Virus record (IMG/VR): IMGVR_UViG_3300046519_000239 | Span: 1 to 35,123 of that record | Length of the DNA: 35,123 nucleotides | Reading direction: 5' to 3' (one strand) | Source: a virus | Part shown: piece by piece, positions 5,202 to 17,072 of the stretch | How the letters are laid out: each line of letters opens with the position of its first letter | How positions within the stretch are numbered: the first letter of the stretch is position 1 | Translations under genes and position numbers: made by a program | The notes under the pieces: generated by a model | Seen by the model: the letters and a program-made list of their open reading frames with translations, nothing else | Databases searched by the model: none | What the model was told of the DNA's origin: nothing

Positions 5202-5861
5202 ATGTTTGACATACGCACCAAAATTTCGACGCGCCTGAAGGCCTGTCGTCACCAAAAAGACTGGACCTTTGCCGAGTCCGCTAACCGCCTGGGCGTTATT
5301 CTTGGCAAGCCGGTCATTACTTCGCGCTATGGCAACTGGGAGCTGGGGATAAACATTCCGCCGCTGGAAATGTTTATTGGCTTGGGCAAGCTGTTTGGCA
5401 AGCCTCCCGCCTGGTTGTCCGGCCTGACCGACGACGACGGCGAAGCCCCGGAAACCCAAAACTATGCGGTCCCTCCCCTTTCGACCGTTCCGAGCGATTC
5501 CGGAACCATCGACCTGGGCGAGGACGCGCTGGCCTTTCACAGTAACTTTCTGGAGCGCAATGGCCTGCGCCGGGAAAACATTCTGCTGGTCGAAGCACCC
5601 GACGAAGCCATGACCGGAATCATCAATCAAGGCGACTTGGCGCTGATCGACCTCACAGAGACTCGCGTTACGCGTAACGATATTTTTGCCATCATGGTCA
5701 AAGGGCGGCTCTGGCTGCGCTGGATTCGCCAGGAAATTGATGGTGACTACGCCATTCAAGCCGAGAAGCGCGACCGTTATCCCGACCAACCCCTGACCGC
5801 TGAAAAACTCGCCCAGCTGCACATCCTCGGTCGCGTCCGACTCATCACCCACCTGCGCTAA
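5202..5861 (+). CDS. CI-like repressor, XRE HTH plus S24-like domain without catalytic residues
   Basis: 219 residues. Residues 1-75 form a Cro/CI-type HTH (TFAESANRLGVILGKPVITSRYGNWELG). Residues about 120-219 have the S24 peptidase fold pattern, but the Ser of the usual GDSM motif is replaced (APDEAM, Ser to Ala) and the catalytic Lys position reads LWLRWI (Arg). RecA-stimulated self-cleavage as in lambda CI is therefore unlikely. It is divergent from the Cro-like gene and flanked by TTACACTT-type operators. The S24 part carries a perfect GTTACGCGTAAC site, read as VTRN. A terminator follows. It should maintain lysogeny; induction may need an antirepressor or another signal. Confidence 0.9.
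   Translation: MFDIRTKISTRLKACRHQKDWTFAESANRLGVILGKPVITSRYGNWELGINIPPLEMFIGLGKLFGKPPAWLSGLTDDDGEAPETQNYAVPPLSTVPSDSGTIDLGEDALAFHSNFLERNGLRRENILLVEAPDEAMTGIINQGDLALIDLTETRVTRNDIFAIMVKGRLWLRWIRQEIDGDYAIQAEKRDRYPDQPLTAEKLAQLHILGRVRLITHLR
5667..5678. repeat. Dispersed palindrome GTTACGCGTAAC, copy 2 (inside repressor gene)
   Basis: Perfect copy within the coding sequence of the CI-like gene, translated as Val-Thr-Arg-Asn. Confidence 0.85.
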
Positions 5862-7072: not shown

Positions 7073-7732
7073 ATGCAACTCGCCTCACTTCCTCTCGCAA
7101 TCGGCTGCATTTCCCAGAAAGGCGGCGCATGGAAATCCACCCTCTGCCGCGCTTTAGGCACCACCTTTGTGGTCGCTGGCTGGGCCGTCAAAATCGTTGA
7201 CCTCGATATCAAGCAGGCCACCTGCACGTATTGGCAGCAACGCCGCCTTGCTGCTGGCATCGAGCCCGCCGTTCCCGTGCAGCAATATGGCAACGTGGCC
7301 ACCGCACTGAGCCGCGCCGGTGACGCGGATCTTCTGATTTTTGACGGCCCGGCCAATGCGACCGAGGAAACCGTGAAAATCGCTAAAGCCTGCAATCTGC
7401 TGATCCTGCCCACCGGGCTGACCCTTGACGATCTACAACCCCAAGTCGCCCTTGCAAACAGTCTGGTGGACAAGCACGGCATCCCGGTTGAGCGAATTGT
7501 GTTCGCGCTGTGCAAGGCCAGCAAGCGCGCGGCGCCCGTTGAGGCGGCCCGCGAGTACCTGGGCAAGACACGCTTTGCGATTCTCGACGGCGCCATTGAA
7601 CAAGCCGACTCCTACGCGGCGGCCATGAACGAAGGCAAGTCCATCACCGAGACCCCTTTCAAGGGACCCAAGGTCAAGGCGGCAAAGGTCATCCAGTCCG
7701 CCGTTAACCACTTCGAGCGACTGACAGCGTAG
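7073..7732 (+). CDS. parA: ParA-family partition ATPase
   Basis: 219 residues; the ATG at 7073 has an AAAGGA site. The deviant Walker A is at residues 17-25 (QKGGAWKST), with an A'-like VDLDIKQA block and a Walker-B-like LLIFDGPAN. The small size without an N-terminal HTH fits the Ib class (ParF, delta of pSM19035), which pairs with ribbon-helix-helix ParB proteins. It should bind ATP and nucleoid DNA and position plasmid copies at division. The RHH partner follows after 77 bp, and the 8-bp repeat arrays flank parA on both sides. Its presence beside phage structural genes is the main evidence that this prophage is kept as a plasmid. Confidence 0.92.
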   Translation: MQLASLPLAIGCISQKGGAWKSTLCRALGTTFVVAGWAVKIVDLDIKQATCTYWQQRRLAAGIEPAVPVQQYGNVATALSRAGDADLLIFDGPANATEETVKIAKACNLLILPTGLTLDDLQPQVALANSLVDKHGIPVERIVFALCKASKRAAPVEAAREYLGKTRFAILDGAIEQADSYAAAMNEGKSITETPFKGPKVKAAKVIQSAVNHFERLTA

Positions 7733-7733
7733 G

Positions 7734-7765
7734 TTAGCTAAATAGCGAAATAGCTAATTAGCAAT
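7734..7765. repeat. 8-bp phased repeat array D (4 units) with RHH-gene promoter
   Basis: TTAGCTAA, ATAGCGAA, ATAGCTAA and TTAGCAAT at 8-bp spacing, starting two bases after the parA stop. An extended -10 (TGATAGTAT, 7771-7779) follows six bases later, so the array occupies the -35 region of the RHH gene. Confidence 0.85.
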
Positions 7766-7809
7766 GCAGCTGATAGTATCGAATGATCGCGCACACAGGA
7801 CCGATTCCC

Positions 7810-8103
7810 ATGACCAGCAAGAGCACTCCGCAAGATTCCGCAGCCGTCACCGTGGGCAAGCCACCAGCGCGCCGCAAAGGCCTGGGCGAGCCGCCACAGA
7901 CAGCCGCAGACACGGCATCCGTAGGCAATAACACCAGCGTGCCGGCCGACGATAAGTTGGTTGATTTGGGCTTCAAGGTGCCGCAGGCATACCGCCGCAA
8001 CTTTCGTACGTTCTGCGCAAGCAATGATCTGTCGCAGGTCGACGCACTGCGCGAGGCGATGGCGGACTACATGGCTAAGAAAGGCTGGGAACCCAGCAAC
8101 TGA
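7810..8103 (+). CDS. Ribbon-helix-helix partition protein (ParB/ParG/omega type)
   Basis: 97 residues from the ATG at 7810 (AGGA 9 bases before); the ATG at 7783 has no ribosome site. The first 50 residues are a flexible, basic, Ala/Thr-rich arm. Residues about 54-92 (LVDLGFKVPQAYRRNFRTF ... DLSQVDALREAMADYMAKKG) give a short strand and two helices, the RHH pattern. This is the plan of ParG: a disordered N-terminal arm that stimulates the ATPase and an RHH dimer that binds short repeats. It should bind the TTMGCTAA arrays as centromere and operator. Binding specificity is inferred from gene position only. Confidence 0.75.
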   Translation: MTSKSTPQDSAAVTVGKPPARRKGLGEPPQTAADTASVGNNTSVPADDKLVDLGFKVPQAYRRNFRTFCASNDLSQVDALREAMADYMAKKGWEPSN

Positions 8104-12218: not shown

Positions 12219-12566
12219 TTATCGGCGGTCATGGTCGCGCAGGCTGTGACGCACCACACCCCAGACCTCGAACGTGTCGGTTTCCAGAATGTAGCGCGGC
12301 GGGTACTGCGGGTTTTCCGAACGCAACACCGGGTCGCGCCCGGCAAAGTCCAGACGCTTGCACATTGGCTCGCCGTTGATCACGGCAATGACGATGTTGC
12401 CGCGCACCGGGTCGCGGGAGCGGTCGACCACCAGCAGGTCACCAGTGAAGATCCCGGCGCCCTGCATGCTGTCGCCCTCGACCTTGACCAGATAGGTGCC
12501 CGGCGCGCGGATGCTCAGCAGGGCATCGAGCGACAGCGCTTCGGCGCCCGGCACATCCTCAAGCAT
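12219..12566 (-). CDS. UmuD'/HumD-like S24 protein
   Basis: 115 residues. The sequence is a bare S24 domain: KVEGDSMQGAGIFTGDLLVVDRS with the catalytic Ser at residue 33, and EPMCKRL with Lys at 70. The Ser-Lys spacing (37) equals that of UmuD (60 to 97), and there is no N-terminal HTH and almost no cleavable arm. That is the plan of processed UmuD' and of HumD of the phage-plasmid P1, which work with UmuC in DNA polymerase V. No umuC is in the window, so it may supply UmuD' function to the host polymerase or modulate other S24 proteins. It overlaps the upstream gene by 8 bp. Confidence 0.85.
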   Translation of the reverse strand: MLEDVPGAEALSLDALLSIRAPGTYLVKVEGDSMQGAGIFTGDLLVVDRSRDPVRGNIVIAVINGEPMCKRLDFAGRDPVLRSENPQYPPRYILETDTFEVWGVVRHSLRDHDRR

Positions 12567-12846: not shown

Positions 12847-13269
12847 CTAAGCAGCCTGAACCGTCAGTGTCAGGTGAAGGCCCAGCACCGCCAGTGCCCG
12901 CTCCACCTGCTCGATCTTCGAGCTGTGCAGGAAGTCCACCAGACGATCCACCACCTGCCGCGAACAGGCCAGCCGGTGCGCGAGGTCGACACGGCTCACA
13001 CCCTCATCGAGCATGGCATTCCACAGCATGATTTTCGCCACGGTCAACGCAGGCAGGCGCAGCACCTGGCTACGCTCGTTCGGCGCCGAGGCGGCCGGAA
13101 TCTTGCGGCGCTGCTCGACGTACAACGACAGCGCCGATTCCATGCCGTCCAGGGCTTCGGCCAAAGCCTCGTCCAGGGTGTCGCCCGAGGCGTTCATTTC
13201 CGGGATGTCGCGGCACGACAGCCAGACGCCGGTGGATTCTTCGTGCAGTTCTAGCGGGTACTGATACAT
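12847..13269 (-). CDS. hicB: HicB antitoxin with C-terminal HTH
   Basis: 140 residues from the ATG at 13269 (AGGTGA 7 bases before); the frame is open further upstream but overlaps hicA. The N-terminus MYQYPLELHEESTGVWLSCR and DIPEMNASGDTLDEALAEALDGM are the HicB RNase-H-like fold. Residues about 90-125 (LDEGVSRVDLAHRLACSRQVVDRLVD) form an XRE-type HTH for autoregulation. It neutralises HicA. The order is toxin first, and the promoter-proximal tandem palindromes at 13520-13555 are the probable operator. Confidence 0.9.
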   Translation of the reverse strand: MYQYPLELHEESTGVWLSCRDIPEMNASGDTLDEALAEALDGMESALSLYVEQRRKIPAASAPNERSQVLRLPALTVAKIMLWNAMLDEGVSRVDLAHRLACSRQVVDRLVDFLHSSKIEQVERALAVLGLHLTLTVQAA

Positions 13270-13300
13270 GGCTTCACCTGTCAGGGGGTACAGCCAAGCC

Positions 13301-13483
13301 TCAATCCTTGAGGCCCAGCTGTTTGATCGTCTTCTTGCGCAACCCTTCGTGCATTTCCTTGCTGCCGTGGTCCGCAAAGATGGTCGATTTGCCATTCAAG
13401 TACACCTTGAAGTGACTGCCCTTGGCCGGTTTGAATTCCGCGCCTTGGGCCAACAACCACCGCCGAAACTCGCTGCACTTCAT
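13301..13483 (-). CDS. hicA: HicA mRNA-interferase toxin
   Basis: 60 residues from the ATG at 13483 with an AAGGGA site. The sequence MKCSEFRRWLLAQGAEFKPA then GSHFKVYLNGKSTIFADHGSKEMHEGL is the dsRBD-like HicA fold, including the conserved GSH motif whose His is catalytic. It cleaves mRNA when not bound by HicB. A 31-bp gap separates it from hicB. On a phage-plasmid it could serve stability or defence; which is not shown. Confidence 0.9.
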   Translation of the reverse strand: MKCSEFRRWLLAQGAEFKPAKGSHFKVYLNGKSTIFADHGSKEMHEGLRKKTIKQLGLKD

Positions 13484-13519
13484 TGCTGATGTCCCTTGCC
13501 GTTTCGGTGACGCCATTAT

Positions 13520-13555
13520 GCAACACTTGTGTTGCCTTCGCAACACTTGTGTTGC
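13520..13555. promoter_or_regulatory. HicB operator, two tandem palindromes
   Basis: Two identical 16-bp sites, GCAACACTTGTGTTGC, at 13520-13535 and 13540-13555 (arms GCAACAC/GTGTTGC around TT). Their centres are 20 bp apart, two helical turns. They lie 37 bp upstream of hicA. Confidence 0.85.
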
Positions 13556-13556
13556 A

Positions 13557-14789
13557 TTAAAGATCCTCGTTACCCGTAACGCCCAGCTCACCCGGTTGCG
13601 GCCGGTAGTCGGTCGACAGCCCGGCTGTGCGCAGACGCTGTTCCCACAAGGCAATGGCGCCGTGCGCCTTGTTGCGCTCGCTTTCGAGCAAGGCGTTTTC
13701 ACGTTTCAAGGCGGTCAACTCGCGCTGCATGGCATTGAGCCGGTCGATCATGCCCGCGCTGCGTTCGTATTCGTCGTTGTACGCCTTCCAGCCGCGCTTG
13801 CGCTCGCTTTCACGGTGCTTTTCCGTCACCAGCACCGCCGGATCTTCGCCCAGCTGGTCGAACGACTGCGCGCCCTTGAACCACGGCGCGCCACGAAAAA
13901 TCGGCTCCAGCCATTCGCGGACACACGCTGTCCCTTGGTGGTCCAGATCCTTGCGTACGGTCCAATACACATCTACGGCGCACCACAGATACGCCACGGC
14001 ATCATCCGGCAGCTGCACCGTTCTTAAGCCCTGTTGCGCGGCCTGCTTTTTCTGCTCGGTCTGACGCCTGCGAAACTCGCGCTGTCTTTCCGCATTACTC
14101 TTGGCCTTAGGCTTGTCGGATTCGGGCGCATCGCCAAACATCGCCAGCTGCCCGTCCGGCAGGATGCCCGCCAGGGCACCGGCCAGCCATTTAGGGTGTG
14201 GCTCGGGGCTGGTGAACACAAAGGCATCGGCCTTGATAGCCTTGGGCTTGCCCTCGCCCTCGATCAGCTCGATCACCGCCCGGCGCACGGCCTGATCAAA
14301 GGTTTCACCCAGGTGCGAAGTTGCGGTAACCCCGTGATGGCGGTAGCCCGTCTCACTCAGAAAAGGCTTGTCCAGGTCCACGGCGTTCAGGTCGATTGAG
14401 TGATGGTTGCCCAGCCCCTCCCTGACTTTCACGCGAATGCGCATGCCGTCGACCTCCAGCAGAAACTCGCCCATCTGGCCCCAGCGCGGCACCTGCCCCG
14501 GAGTGGCCGCTACCGCTCGTGCCAAGACGTGACCCGCGCTGTTTTCGTCGGCCATGCTGCCAAACAGGGTGTTGCCATTGAGCACGTAAACCAGCGCCTC
14601 ATAGCCGTCATGGGTCGCGTCCAGCTCCGCAACATCCCCCGCCAAAACCGCGTCGTGATGACGCTCAACCAGGGCCCGCGCCCGTGCCGGAAACTCGGCC
14701 GGGTCCACGCCTTCCAGTTGCGACACCAGCGCCTGAAACGCTGGGCTTTCTTCTCGCGGAACGTACTTATATGGGGGTTTGCGGGCCAT
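13557..14789 (-). CDS. 410-aa plasmid/phage-associated protein of unknown function
   Basis: ATG at 14789 with TGGAG 9 bases before. Residues about 65-160 (YEALVYVLNGNTLFG, MADENSAGHVLARAVAA, WGQMGEFLLEVDGMRIRV, SETGYRHHGV) form a block that I associate with uncharacterised proteins on Pseudomonas plasmids and islands, some next to antirestriction genes. The middle is Arg/Gln-rich (KSNAERQREFRRRQTEQKKQAAQQ), and the C-terminal third is a coiled coil (MIDRLNAMQRELTALKRENALL). Its promoter (TTGCGC-16-TAGAAT, 14853-14826) lies inside array F, so it is probably controlled by the RHH protein. A counter-defence role is speculation. Confidence 0.7.
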   Translation of the reverse strand: MARKPPYKYVPREESPAFQALVSQLEGVDPAEFPARARALVERHHDAVLAGDVAELDATHDGYEALVYVLNGNTLFGSMADENSAGHVLARAVAATPGQVPRWGQMGEFLLEVDGMRIRVKVREGLGNHHSIDLNAVDLDKPFLSETGYRHHGVTATSHLGETFDQAVRRAVIELIEGEGKPKAIKADAFVFTSPEPHPKWLAGALAGILPDGQLAMFGDAPESDKPKAKSNAERQREFRRRQTEQKKQAAQQGLRTVQLPDDAVAYLWCAVDVYWTVRKDLDHQGTACVREWLEPIFRGAPWFKGAQSFDQLGEDPAVLVTEKHRESERKRGWKAYNDEYERSAGMIDRLNAMQRELTALKRENALLESERNKAHGAIALWEQRLRTAGLSTDYRPQPGELGVTGNEDL

Positions 14790-14825: not shown

Positions 14826-14853
14826 ATTCTATCTGTTTAGCTAATTCGCGCAA
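14826..14853 (-). promoter_or_regulatory. Promoter of the 410-aa gene
   Basis: On the minus strand TTGCGC (14853-14848), a 16-bp spacer and TAGAAT (14831-14826). It has the same -35 and spacer length as the parA promoter, and array F covers it. Confidence 0.6.
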
Positions 14854-14876
14854 TAGCTAATTCGCTAATTCGCTTA
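14837..14876. repeat. 8-bp phased repeat array F (5 units)
   Basis: TTAGCTAA, TTCGCGCA, ATAGCTAA, TTCGCTAA and TTCGCTTA at exact 8-bp spacing. A palindrome variant, GTGACGCGTCAC (14886-14897), lies 10 bp to the right. Confidence 0.85.
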
Positions 14877-15677: not shown

Positions 15678-16778
15678 TTAGGCGTCGAATCGTCGTCGTC
15701 GCCATTCGGCGCCCGACAGCCCGCCGTATTTGGTGAACAGGTCCACGTTCTCTTTGCCGACCAGCTTGCGGCCCAGCTGGGCCTCGATCTTCAGCTTGAA
15801 CGCTTTGACATAGGCGTCATAGTCGCCCTTGAGGCTTTCCGTGCTGTTGTCCGGCTCGACGGTGGCCGGGAACTGGTTCTTGCGTACTGTCTTCGTGCTC
15901 AGCTGCTTGTGGACGCGCTCGCTTTGAATCTCGCGAGCTAGCTGTTCCTCCTCGTCCTTGCTTTGAATGCCGACCAGCGCGGCGCCGCCCAGGAACTCGC
16001 TGACCTTGCGGGTGGCCTTCTTGCGCGCACTTTCCATGGCGGCCTTGGTGTAGCCACCCAGCAGGCGGAGAAACTTCTGACTGACCGTCTTGATGGCCGG
16101 TCGGCCGCGCATGCCTTCCTCGGTGATTTCGTACTGCTCAAACACGTCGATCACGCCAGCGGTCTTGAGCTTGTGGATACCGCGCCAGAAGCGCGAGCAC
16201 GCCACATGCTCGATCTGCTCGGGGTCGTTCGGGTTGGCCTCGGGTCGCGTGAGACCGCTACGGCGGGCCAGCTCGTTAAATGACAGATTCTTGAACTCGC
16301 CACGGATCGTGTAGTGGCCCACACGCAACGATTTCAGATCCAGCGCAGCAAAGATTGCGCACAGAATCAGAATCTCCGCCTCGCGGGTTTCGCTGCGGTT
16401 TTGACGTGGCGAACCATCAGTGTTCTTTTTTCCGCTCAGATAGGCCAGCAGGGGCACTGACGCCGGATCTGCGAAATACGCCTGCGCCTTCTCAATCAGC
16501 CGGTCGAGGACGCGGATGCGAAAACCTGTTTTGGTTTGAGGCAACGACAAACGACTAAGCGCCAGAGCGTCTGGGCTATGCCCACAACGGTTACCGGTGC
16601 CCAAATGCTTGCCATCATATTTGTACTTGCGACTCCCCCACATAAATGCGGGGAATTCGCCAGGACCGTTTTCGGCCGCGACGCTCATCCAGCTATCCCT
16701 GTAGTAACGGGCTTGCTTAGAAGGCGATGGGTGGATAAACTTCGGACTTGTGAGGTCGTCTGAAGCTTTTTTGTTCAC
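15678..16778 (-). CDS. Plasmid-type replication initiator (RepA-like)
   Basis: 366 residues from a GTG at 16778 with a poor ribosome site. The central region (SETREAEILILCAIFAALDLKSLRVG, FKNLSFNELARRSGL, SRFWRGIHKLKTAGVIDVFEQYEI) has the winged-helix pattern of IncFII/RepA-type plasmid initiators: a helix ending in a xxRVG turn, an LAxxxGL HTH and a RAxxxLxxxGLI-like wing helix. The C-terminus is basic and helical. It should open a nearby origin, probably the gene-free 15.1-15.6 kb region. It stands directly downstream of the lysis genes on the same strand, so late transcription could raise its dose. An antisense RNA is predicted across the start. The exact plasmid family needs a profile search. 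Confidence 0.7.
   Translation of the reverse strand: MNKKASDDLTSPKFIHPSPSKQARYYRDSWMSVAAENGPGEFPAFMWGSRKYKYDGKHLGTGNRCGHSPDALALSRLSLPQTKTGFRIRVLDRLIEKAQAYFADPASVPLLAYLSGKKNTDGSPRQNRSETREAEILILCAIFAALDLKSLRVGHYTIRGEFKNLSFNELARRSGLTRPEANPNDPEQIEHVACSRFWRGIHKLKTAGVIDVFEQYEITEEGMRGRPAIKTVSQKFLRLLGGYTKAAMESARKKATRKVSEFLGGAALVGIQSKDEEEQLAREIQSERVHKQLSTKTVRKNQFPATVEPDNSTESLKGDYDAYVKAFKLKIEAQLGRKLVGKENVDLFTKYGGLSGAEWRRRRFDA
16713..16741 (+). promoter_or_regulatory. Antisense promoter inside the 5' end of rep
   Basis: TTGCTT (16713-16718), 17-bp spacer, TAAACT (16736-16741), pointing against rep. Confidence 0.55.
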
Positions 16779-16824
16779 CGATCACCGAGAACCCTAGGCC
16801 TGCCAGCCTGGGGTTTTCTTTTTT
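16748..16824 (+). ncRNA. Predicted antisense RNA controlling rep
   Basis: The promoter at 16713-16741 and a rightward terminator at 16790-16824 bracket a transcript of about 75 nt, complementary to the rep start codon (16776-16778), its ribosome site and first codons. The terminator has a 10-bp stem (AACCCTAGGC with GCCTGGGGTT, one G-T pair) followed by a broken run of T. This is the arrangement of countertranscript copy-number control in RepA plasmids, but here the RNA covers the start codon itself. Confidence 0.6.
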
Positions 16825-17072
16825 CTAAACCCTTGTTTTTTCTAGATTCTTTTTTTCGGCCTCATGGCCGCGTGCCAAAAGAATATCAAAGCCGCTTCGG
16901 CTTGAACATCAAAACTGTTTAAATTTTTTCTCCAGCCGTCGCCAAGCCCGGGGCACAGCCCCTGCCAACGCCGCAAAAATACCCTGCGGACAGCTGATAA
17001 AGCTGCCCGATAGTAGCCGCCTGATCGCACGCGAGCAAAGTTTTCATTCGCATGACGGCCCGACGGCCGGTA
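16825..17072 (-). other. rep leader, non-coding and highly structured
   Basis: About 250 bp between the spanin genes and the antisense terminator. On the rep-sense strand it holds the stems CAGCT/AGCTG (about 16991-17006), GGGGC/GCCCC (16950-16962), AGCCG/CGGCT (about 16890-16904) and CGGCC/GGCCG (about 16858-16871). A 62-codon open frame (16842-17030) could be a leader peptide but lacks an ATG and a good ribosome site. Structure suggests post-transcriptional control of rep. Confidence 0.5.

Follow-up and report, generated by a model that had tools for sequence, protein, structure and literature searches.

Genomic setting of the replication region

The sequence under analysis (hereafter 'the window') is the whole 35,123-nucleotide stretch of the IMG/VR virus record IMGVR_UViG_3300046519_000239. 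It encodes capsid, sheath, tape measure and baseplate proteins together with an integrase and a ParA protein, and appears to represent a temperate phage living as a plasmid. Its complete relatives include circular phages or phage-containing plasmids, i.e., PARCL1pr, pHN2, pPL-38ph and pPAC1.3b. The ParA partition ATPase (positions 7073–7732, plus strand) was recognized through matches to NCBIfam NF041546 (2.5e-24, under the cut-off of that model) and to PHROG 164, ParA-like partition protein (5.8e-20); it is followed by a small ribbon-helix-helix protein, and the two (7073–8103), set apart from most of the window by their plus-strand location, likely form a partition pair. The minus strand carries a HicB-like and HicA toxin-antitoxin pair at 12847–13702 (Pfam HicA 2.9e-9; HicB-like 3.3e-5, under its cut-off), while two S24 peptidase-like proteins (5202–5861 and 12219–12566) represent a repressor-like gene and a UmuD/LexA-like fragment. 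Short direct repeats, TAGCTAATTCGC, are located at 14830–14873, just upstream of the gene at 13557–14789, and could be iteron-like or operator sites.

The rep gene (15678–16688, minus strand) specifies a replication initiator of 336 amino acids, starting at ATG 16688–16686 behind the ribosome-binding site AGGGA (16696–16700, minus strand) discerned in the sequence; a G-rich site likewise precedes the ATG in most relatives. The rep product has no Pfam or NCBIfam match and falls within PHROG 20951 (unknown function). Fold searches with a model of Rep (pLDDT 76) returned nothing significant in the PDB, the best viral match being an unnamed protein (E 1.9e-14). An hhalign comparison to the RepA protein of pP27494_2, the type member after which the RepA-Pa family is named (PMC5304414), returned a probability of 100 (E 6.6e-61, 31% over 267 columns) and spanned most of Rep, and by this comparison the window initiator is a distant, divergent relative of the RepA-Pa family.

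Conservation of a predicted antisense promoter and terminator

The plus strand carries, facing the 5' part of rep, a candidate antisense promoter composed of a -35 box TTGCTT (16713–16718), a spacer of 17 nt (16719–16735) and a -10 box TAAACT (16736–16741), exactly where an earlier note on this DNA had placed it. The hairpin with T tract which that note saw 49 bp beyond the promoter was also found by an independent pattern scan as an intrinsic terminator of 13 pairs, seven of them G-C (16787–16824, plus strand), with the stem at 16787–16818, the hexaloop CTGCCA at 16800–16805 and the T run at 16819–16824. Promoter and terminator would delimit an antisense (countertranscript) RNA of ~77 nt (16748–16824, plus strand), whose predicted 5' end is uncertain by a few nucleotides (16746–16750) and whose fold, at -29.6 kcal/mol (z = -3.8), was equalled in stability by none of 200 shuffles.

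Taken from the window sequence alone, this promoter is no better than chance and would not be credible: its boxes agree with the promoter consensus at three and four of six positions (7/12 overall), a promoter scan of the window rejected the boxes at 16713–16741, and by chance the window should contain some four copies of the pattern in a loose form. Its significance derives from its conservation among relatives. Rep relatives were gathered from phages, plasmids, viral contigs and bacterial genomes; for the bacterial genome contigs, a first protein scan returned no loci, and loci were recovered with an alignment query. The strict pattern CTTGC-N19-TANACT produced 43 matches in the 1.2 million strand-bases searched, i.e., a single match in the window, at the antisense promoter site, and one apiece in 42 loci. 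In 41 of these 42 the match is rep-linked, with the promoter opposite the rep leader; the sole exception, L055, had been collected via a related DNA pattern.

Nearly all close relatives possess, opposite the rep leader, TTGC(T/A)T, TTGCCC or TTGCCT, a spacer of exactly 17 nt and TAAACT, TACACT or TAGACT, followed ~50 nt downstream of the -10 box by a terminator hairpin with a T tract. CTTGC is invariant in the 30 aligned relatives, as are TA.ACT and the 17-nt spacer in all aligned relatives, and the promoter columns are invariant in 30–31 aligned leaders despite diverged surroundings. The invariant columns of the 31 aligned leaders (30 sequences in the antisense-strand alignment) are mainly the promoter boxes, the A/T tract and the hairpin. 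Furthermore, the terminator hairpin covaries: 97% of cells are paired, five of nine pairs show changes on both sides, and none of 500 shuffles scored as high.

A covariance model (R1), built from the aligned antisense elements of the relatives, detects the predicted RNA in relatives, among them the Aeromonas salmonicida plasmid pAsa6, which was outside the training set and has the element upstream of rep (E 6e-7). In pAsa6 (L065, 1202–1324) the leader between the element and rep is longer. R1 matches were found in three of 299 Pseudomonas genomes, one being the source of L011; the two others scored E ~1e-13, and the one that was checked (L073) has a RepJ-like initiator downstream. The element is absent from the distant reps L013, L014, L015, L067 and L069. 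The antisense element has no Rfam match above threshold; a match to rnk_pseudo at 16722–16824 lies far under it (28.9 bits versus a gathering score of 55) and was read as a shared terminator shape. Diversifying selection on the loop was rejected, as changes in the loop are not enriched over those in the rest of the leader (rates of 0.115 versus 0.122), and selection for incompatibility thus gains no support there, although between L005 and L035 two of the three differing sites are located in the loop.

The conserved promoter and the covarying terminator hairpin therefore make it very likely that the predicted ~77-nt antisense RNA opposite the rep leader is real. The proposal of a countertranscript with a promoter and terminator of its own, advanced in the earlier note, is thereby supported, for a replicon whose family employs control of this type.

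Structure of the rep leader

On the minus strand, the leader comprises, in order, a likely rep promoter with the extended -10 element TGATATTCT (16888–16880) and three stem-loops, S2, S3 and S4. The promoter motif, TGnTAnnnT, is present at the equivalent place in 23 of 32 leaders. S2, with its six-base loop (16800–16805), is the complement of the antisense terminator and would be the target of the RNA. In the rep mRNA, S3 (16737–16768, minus strand) pairs AAGCTTC with GAAGTTT, and the 3' arm of this hairpin overlaps the antisense -10 box, while S4 (16697–16724, minus strand), whose 5' arm corresponds to the antisense -35 strand, would hide the rep ribosome site. The fold of the leader has a z-score of -3.9. 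For S3, all 32 leaders give a better pairing with their own arms than after arm swapping, and for S4 the own arms beat the swapped mean in 29 of 32, with none of 2000 permutations as good; S2 is favoured likewise, although such own-versus-swapped tests are inflated by the relatedness of the sequences. In the window itself S4 is weak, at just -5.0 kcal/mol.

Two further pairings were considered and rejected. The switch helix P1, in which leader ACAAGGGTTTAGAA pairs with CTTCTAAGC in competition with S4, is attractive in single folds, but swapped partners pair equally well (1938 of 2000 permutations as good). For a pseudoknot between loop and ribosome site, pairing of the loop with its own downstream sequence yields -6.7 kcal/mol versus -7.4 kcal/mol for swapped partners.

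The overlap of promoter boxes and hairpin arms raises the question of whether the conserved blocks simply reflect mRNA structure, with no antisense RNA at all. The -10 strand doubles as the 3' arm of S3, the -35 strand as the 5' arm of S4, and in both helices the own arms outscore swapped ones. This reading is nonetheless improbable: conservation peaks in TTGC and TA.ACT, exactly 17 nt apart, and not in the arms that pair with them; the A tract that provides the terminator T tract is also conserved; and reference plasmids (see below) switch the -10 box to CATAAT, yet retain TTGC and the 17-nt spacer.

Assuming that the antisense RNA is made, it could, like its counterparts in pT181 and pIP501, attenuate transcription of the rep mRNA instead of acting on translation. 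The long, structured leader with its alternative pairings would suit such a mode of action, but from the rep promoter to the ATG the pattern scan detected no rep-strand intrinsic terminator, and a conserved hairpin lies over the ribosome site instead, so that attenuation appears unlikely. The predicted unpaired value of the ribosome site in the window falls from 0.29 to 0.09 once the antisense region is taken up; among the relatives, the site is predicted to be less open with the antisense region occupied in several and unchanged in others.

Start codon of rep and target of the antisense RNA

The earlier note had the RNA pair with a GTG start and the ribosome site of rep. The homologs make it almost certain that rep does not begin at this GTG (16776–16778), which is only the first possible start of the open rep frame. 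The closest relative, L016, whose Rep is ~60% identical, has GTA and an in-frame TAA at the corresponding position, and in L003 and L005 a TAG immediately precedes the rep ATG. In every close homolog the alignment begins at the counterpart of ATG 16688, which lies behind AGGGA 16700–16696. A leader peptide starting from the nearby GGTGATC was also rejected, as neither its start nor its frame is conserved (GAG in L003, L006, L011, L036 and L038). Direct blocking of initiation by an antisense RNA covering GTG 16778 and a ribosome site is consequently very improbable, even though the rep frame is open from that GTG and the codon lies downstream of AGGG in the window.

The 5' end of the antisense RNA (~16746–16750) lies ~60 nt upstream of ATG 16688, and the RNA is therefore predicted to pair with the upstream leader, which is the classical arrangement. 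The general statement that countertranscripts usually target the upstream leader thus holds here, while the supposed departure from it, a start-codon target, disappears.

Relation to REx-C control modules

In REx-C modules, a short leader forms three stem-loops, of which the third contains the promoter of a putative antisense RNA and the first is its terminator (Bardaji et al. 2017, PMC5304414). The modules have been exchanged among four unrelated initiator families, i.e., those of the RepJ, RepA-PFP, RepA-RA2 and RepA-Pa replicons of Pseudomonas plasmids, and are responsible for incompatibility; the 2017 survey found no relatives outside Pseudomonas (PMC5304414). The window leader shares this architecture: S2, S3 and S4 precede rep, the antisense promoter lies in the last stem-loop region, the first stem-loop corresponds to the antisense terminator, and A tracts are present on both flanks. 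Compensatory stem changes are common to both sets of leaders, as is a rep gene that starts directly past the last stem-loop where a leader peptide is missing.

Six plasmids with REx-C-type leaders were compared, four of them named in PMC5304414 and two, pAU10 and pPA027, added in the present analysis. At the corresponding antisense site, all six (pA506, pAU10, Drgb7, pP27494_2, pPA027 and pRA2) have TTGC(A/G)(A/C)-17-CATA(A/C)T, followed by a hairpin between A and T tracts. Blastn found no match between the window module region and the reference REx-C modules, and the covariance model matched these weakly, over the full length in pRA2 (E 2e-4) and over the hairpin alone in the others.

The linkage to initiators is equally shared. 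As in the REx-C modules, one type of module is found before non-homologous rep genes, here encoding initiators of the RepA-Pa and RepJ kinds: the Pseudomonas aeruginosa phage-plasmid pPAC1.3b (L064, 2512–3624) carries a window-type control leader, yet the initiator behind it is RepJ-like and shows no relationship to the Rep of the window, a combination which indicates control-module exchange. Direct sequence similarity is weak, but given the agreement in architecture, A tracts and initiator families, and the chimeric make-up of pPAC1.3b, there is a strong case by architecture and linkage for assigning the window leader to the REx-C type. The window module differs in its -10 box, TAAACT instead of CATAAT, in its presence in phage-plasmids, and in the spread of its relatives, which extends to Delftia, Halomonas, Salinicola, Kushneria and Aeromonas.

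Comparison to other antisense-controlled replicons

RNAI (Inc RNA) of the IncI-alpha, IncB and IncL-M plasmids is a ~70-nt antisense RNA directed against a leader hairpin of repZ or repA; it has a single terminator hairpin and a loop that is small and GC-rich, and the window RNA resembles it in size, in its one terminator hairpin and in its small loop. Furthermore, the leader-loop motif UUGGCG occurs in L006, L007 and L011. In contrast, the IncI-alpha and IncB pseudoknot between leader loop and ribosome site was not found for window-type leaders, the leader peptide gene coupled to rep in IncFII and IncI plasmids has no counterpart with a conserved start or frame, and the initiator of IncI-alpha, IncB and IncL-M plasmids is unrelated to the window's Rep. 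The IncFII CopA/CopT system likewise employs an antisense RNA against the rep leader which ends in a hairpin complementary to its target, but CopA has two main hairpins, compared to one in the window RNA, and is accompanied by a tap-like leader peptide that is lacking here, and by a different initiator. RNAI of ColE2 is directed against the rep 5' untranslated region, and rep starts without a leader peptide, as in the window; the window initiator, which lacks any Pfam match, is not of the ColE2/RepA-PFP primase kind.

A model for copy-number control and its implications

Positions 16690–16890 are thus, with high probability, the copy-number control leader of a phage-plasmid, akin to REx-C modules, in which an antisense RNA would limit rep by pairing with the leader. 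The conserved promoter, terminator and structure, the rep start and the initiator homology are established here, and around them we infer transcription, duplex formation, inhibition and incompatibility as follows. The rep mRNA would be initiated from the minus-strand promoter near 16880 and carry a structured leader of ~185 nt before ATG 16688, while a constitutive plus-strand promoter (16713–16741) would give rise to the ~77-nt antisense RNA, terminated by the hairpin with its T tract (16787–16824). Since this RNA would be transcribed from the leader's own DNA, it would be fully complementary to S2 and to part of S3. Pairing would most likely begin by contact of the two hexaloops and then spread to a full duplex, which may reduce translation of rep in that S4, the hairpin over the ribosome site, stays closed. 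This final step, closure of S4 over the ribosome site, is put forward as a proposal because relatives differ in whether antisense binding is predicted to go together with a closed site. The concentration of the antisense RNA would track plasmid copy number, and replication would therefore be kept in check; replicons with an identical loop should be incompatible.

An antisense RNA in REx-C control modules had already been proposed (PMC5304414); what is new is REx-C-type control in phage-plasmids and in relatives outside Pseudomonas, by which the host range of the module is extended past that genus. What began as a weak promoter guess has become a well-supported RNA element, the rep start of the window has been corrected, and a group of phage-plasmids is tied to a known exchangeable control module, which offers a direct way to sort phage-plasmids by predicted compatibility. 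It is tentatively suggested that the antisense hexaloop sets compatibility groups among phage-plasmids, such that a resident might block an incoming relative beside, or instead of, repressor immunity, and that the module may have been transferred as a whole from one initiator to another, unrelated one, between ordinary plasmids and phage-plasmids, and across several bacterial families.
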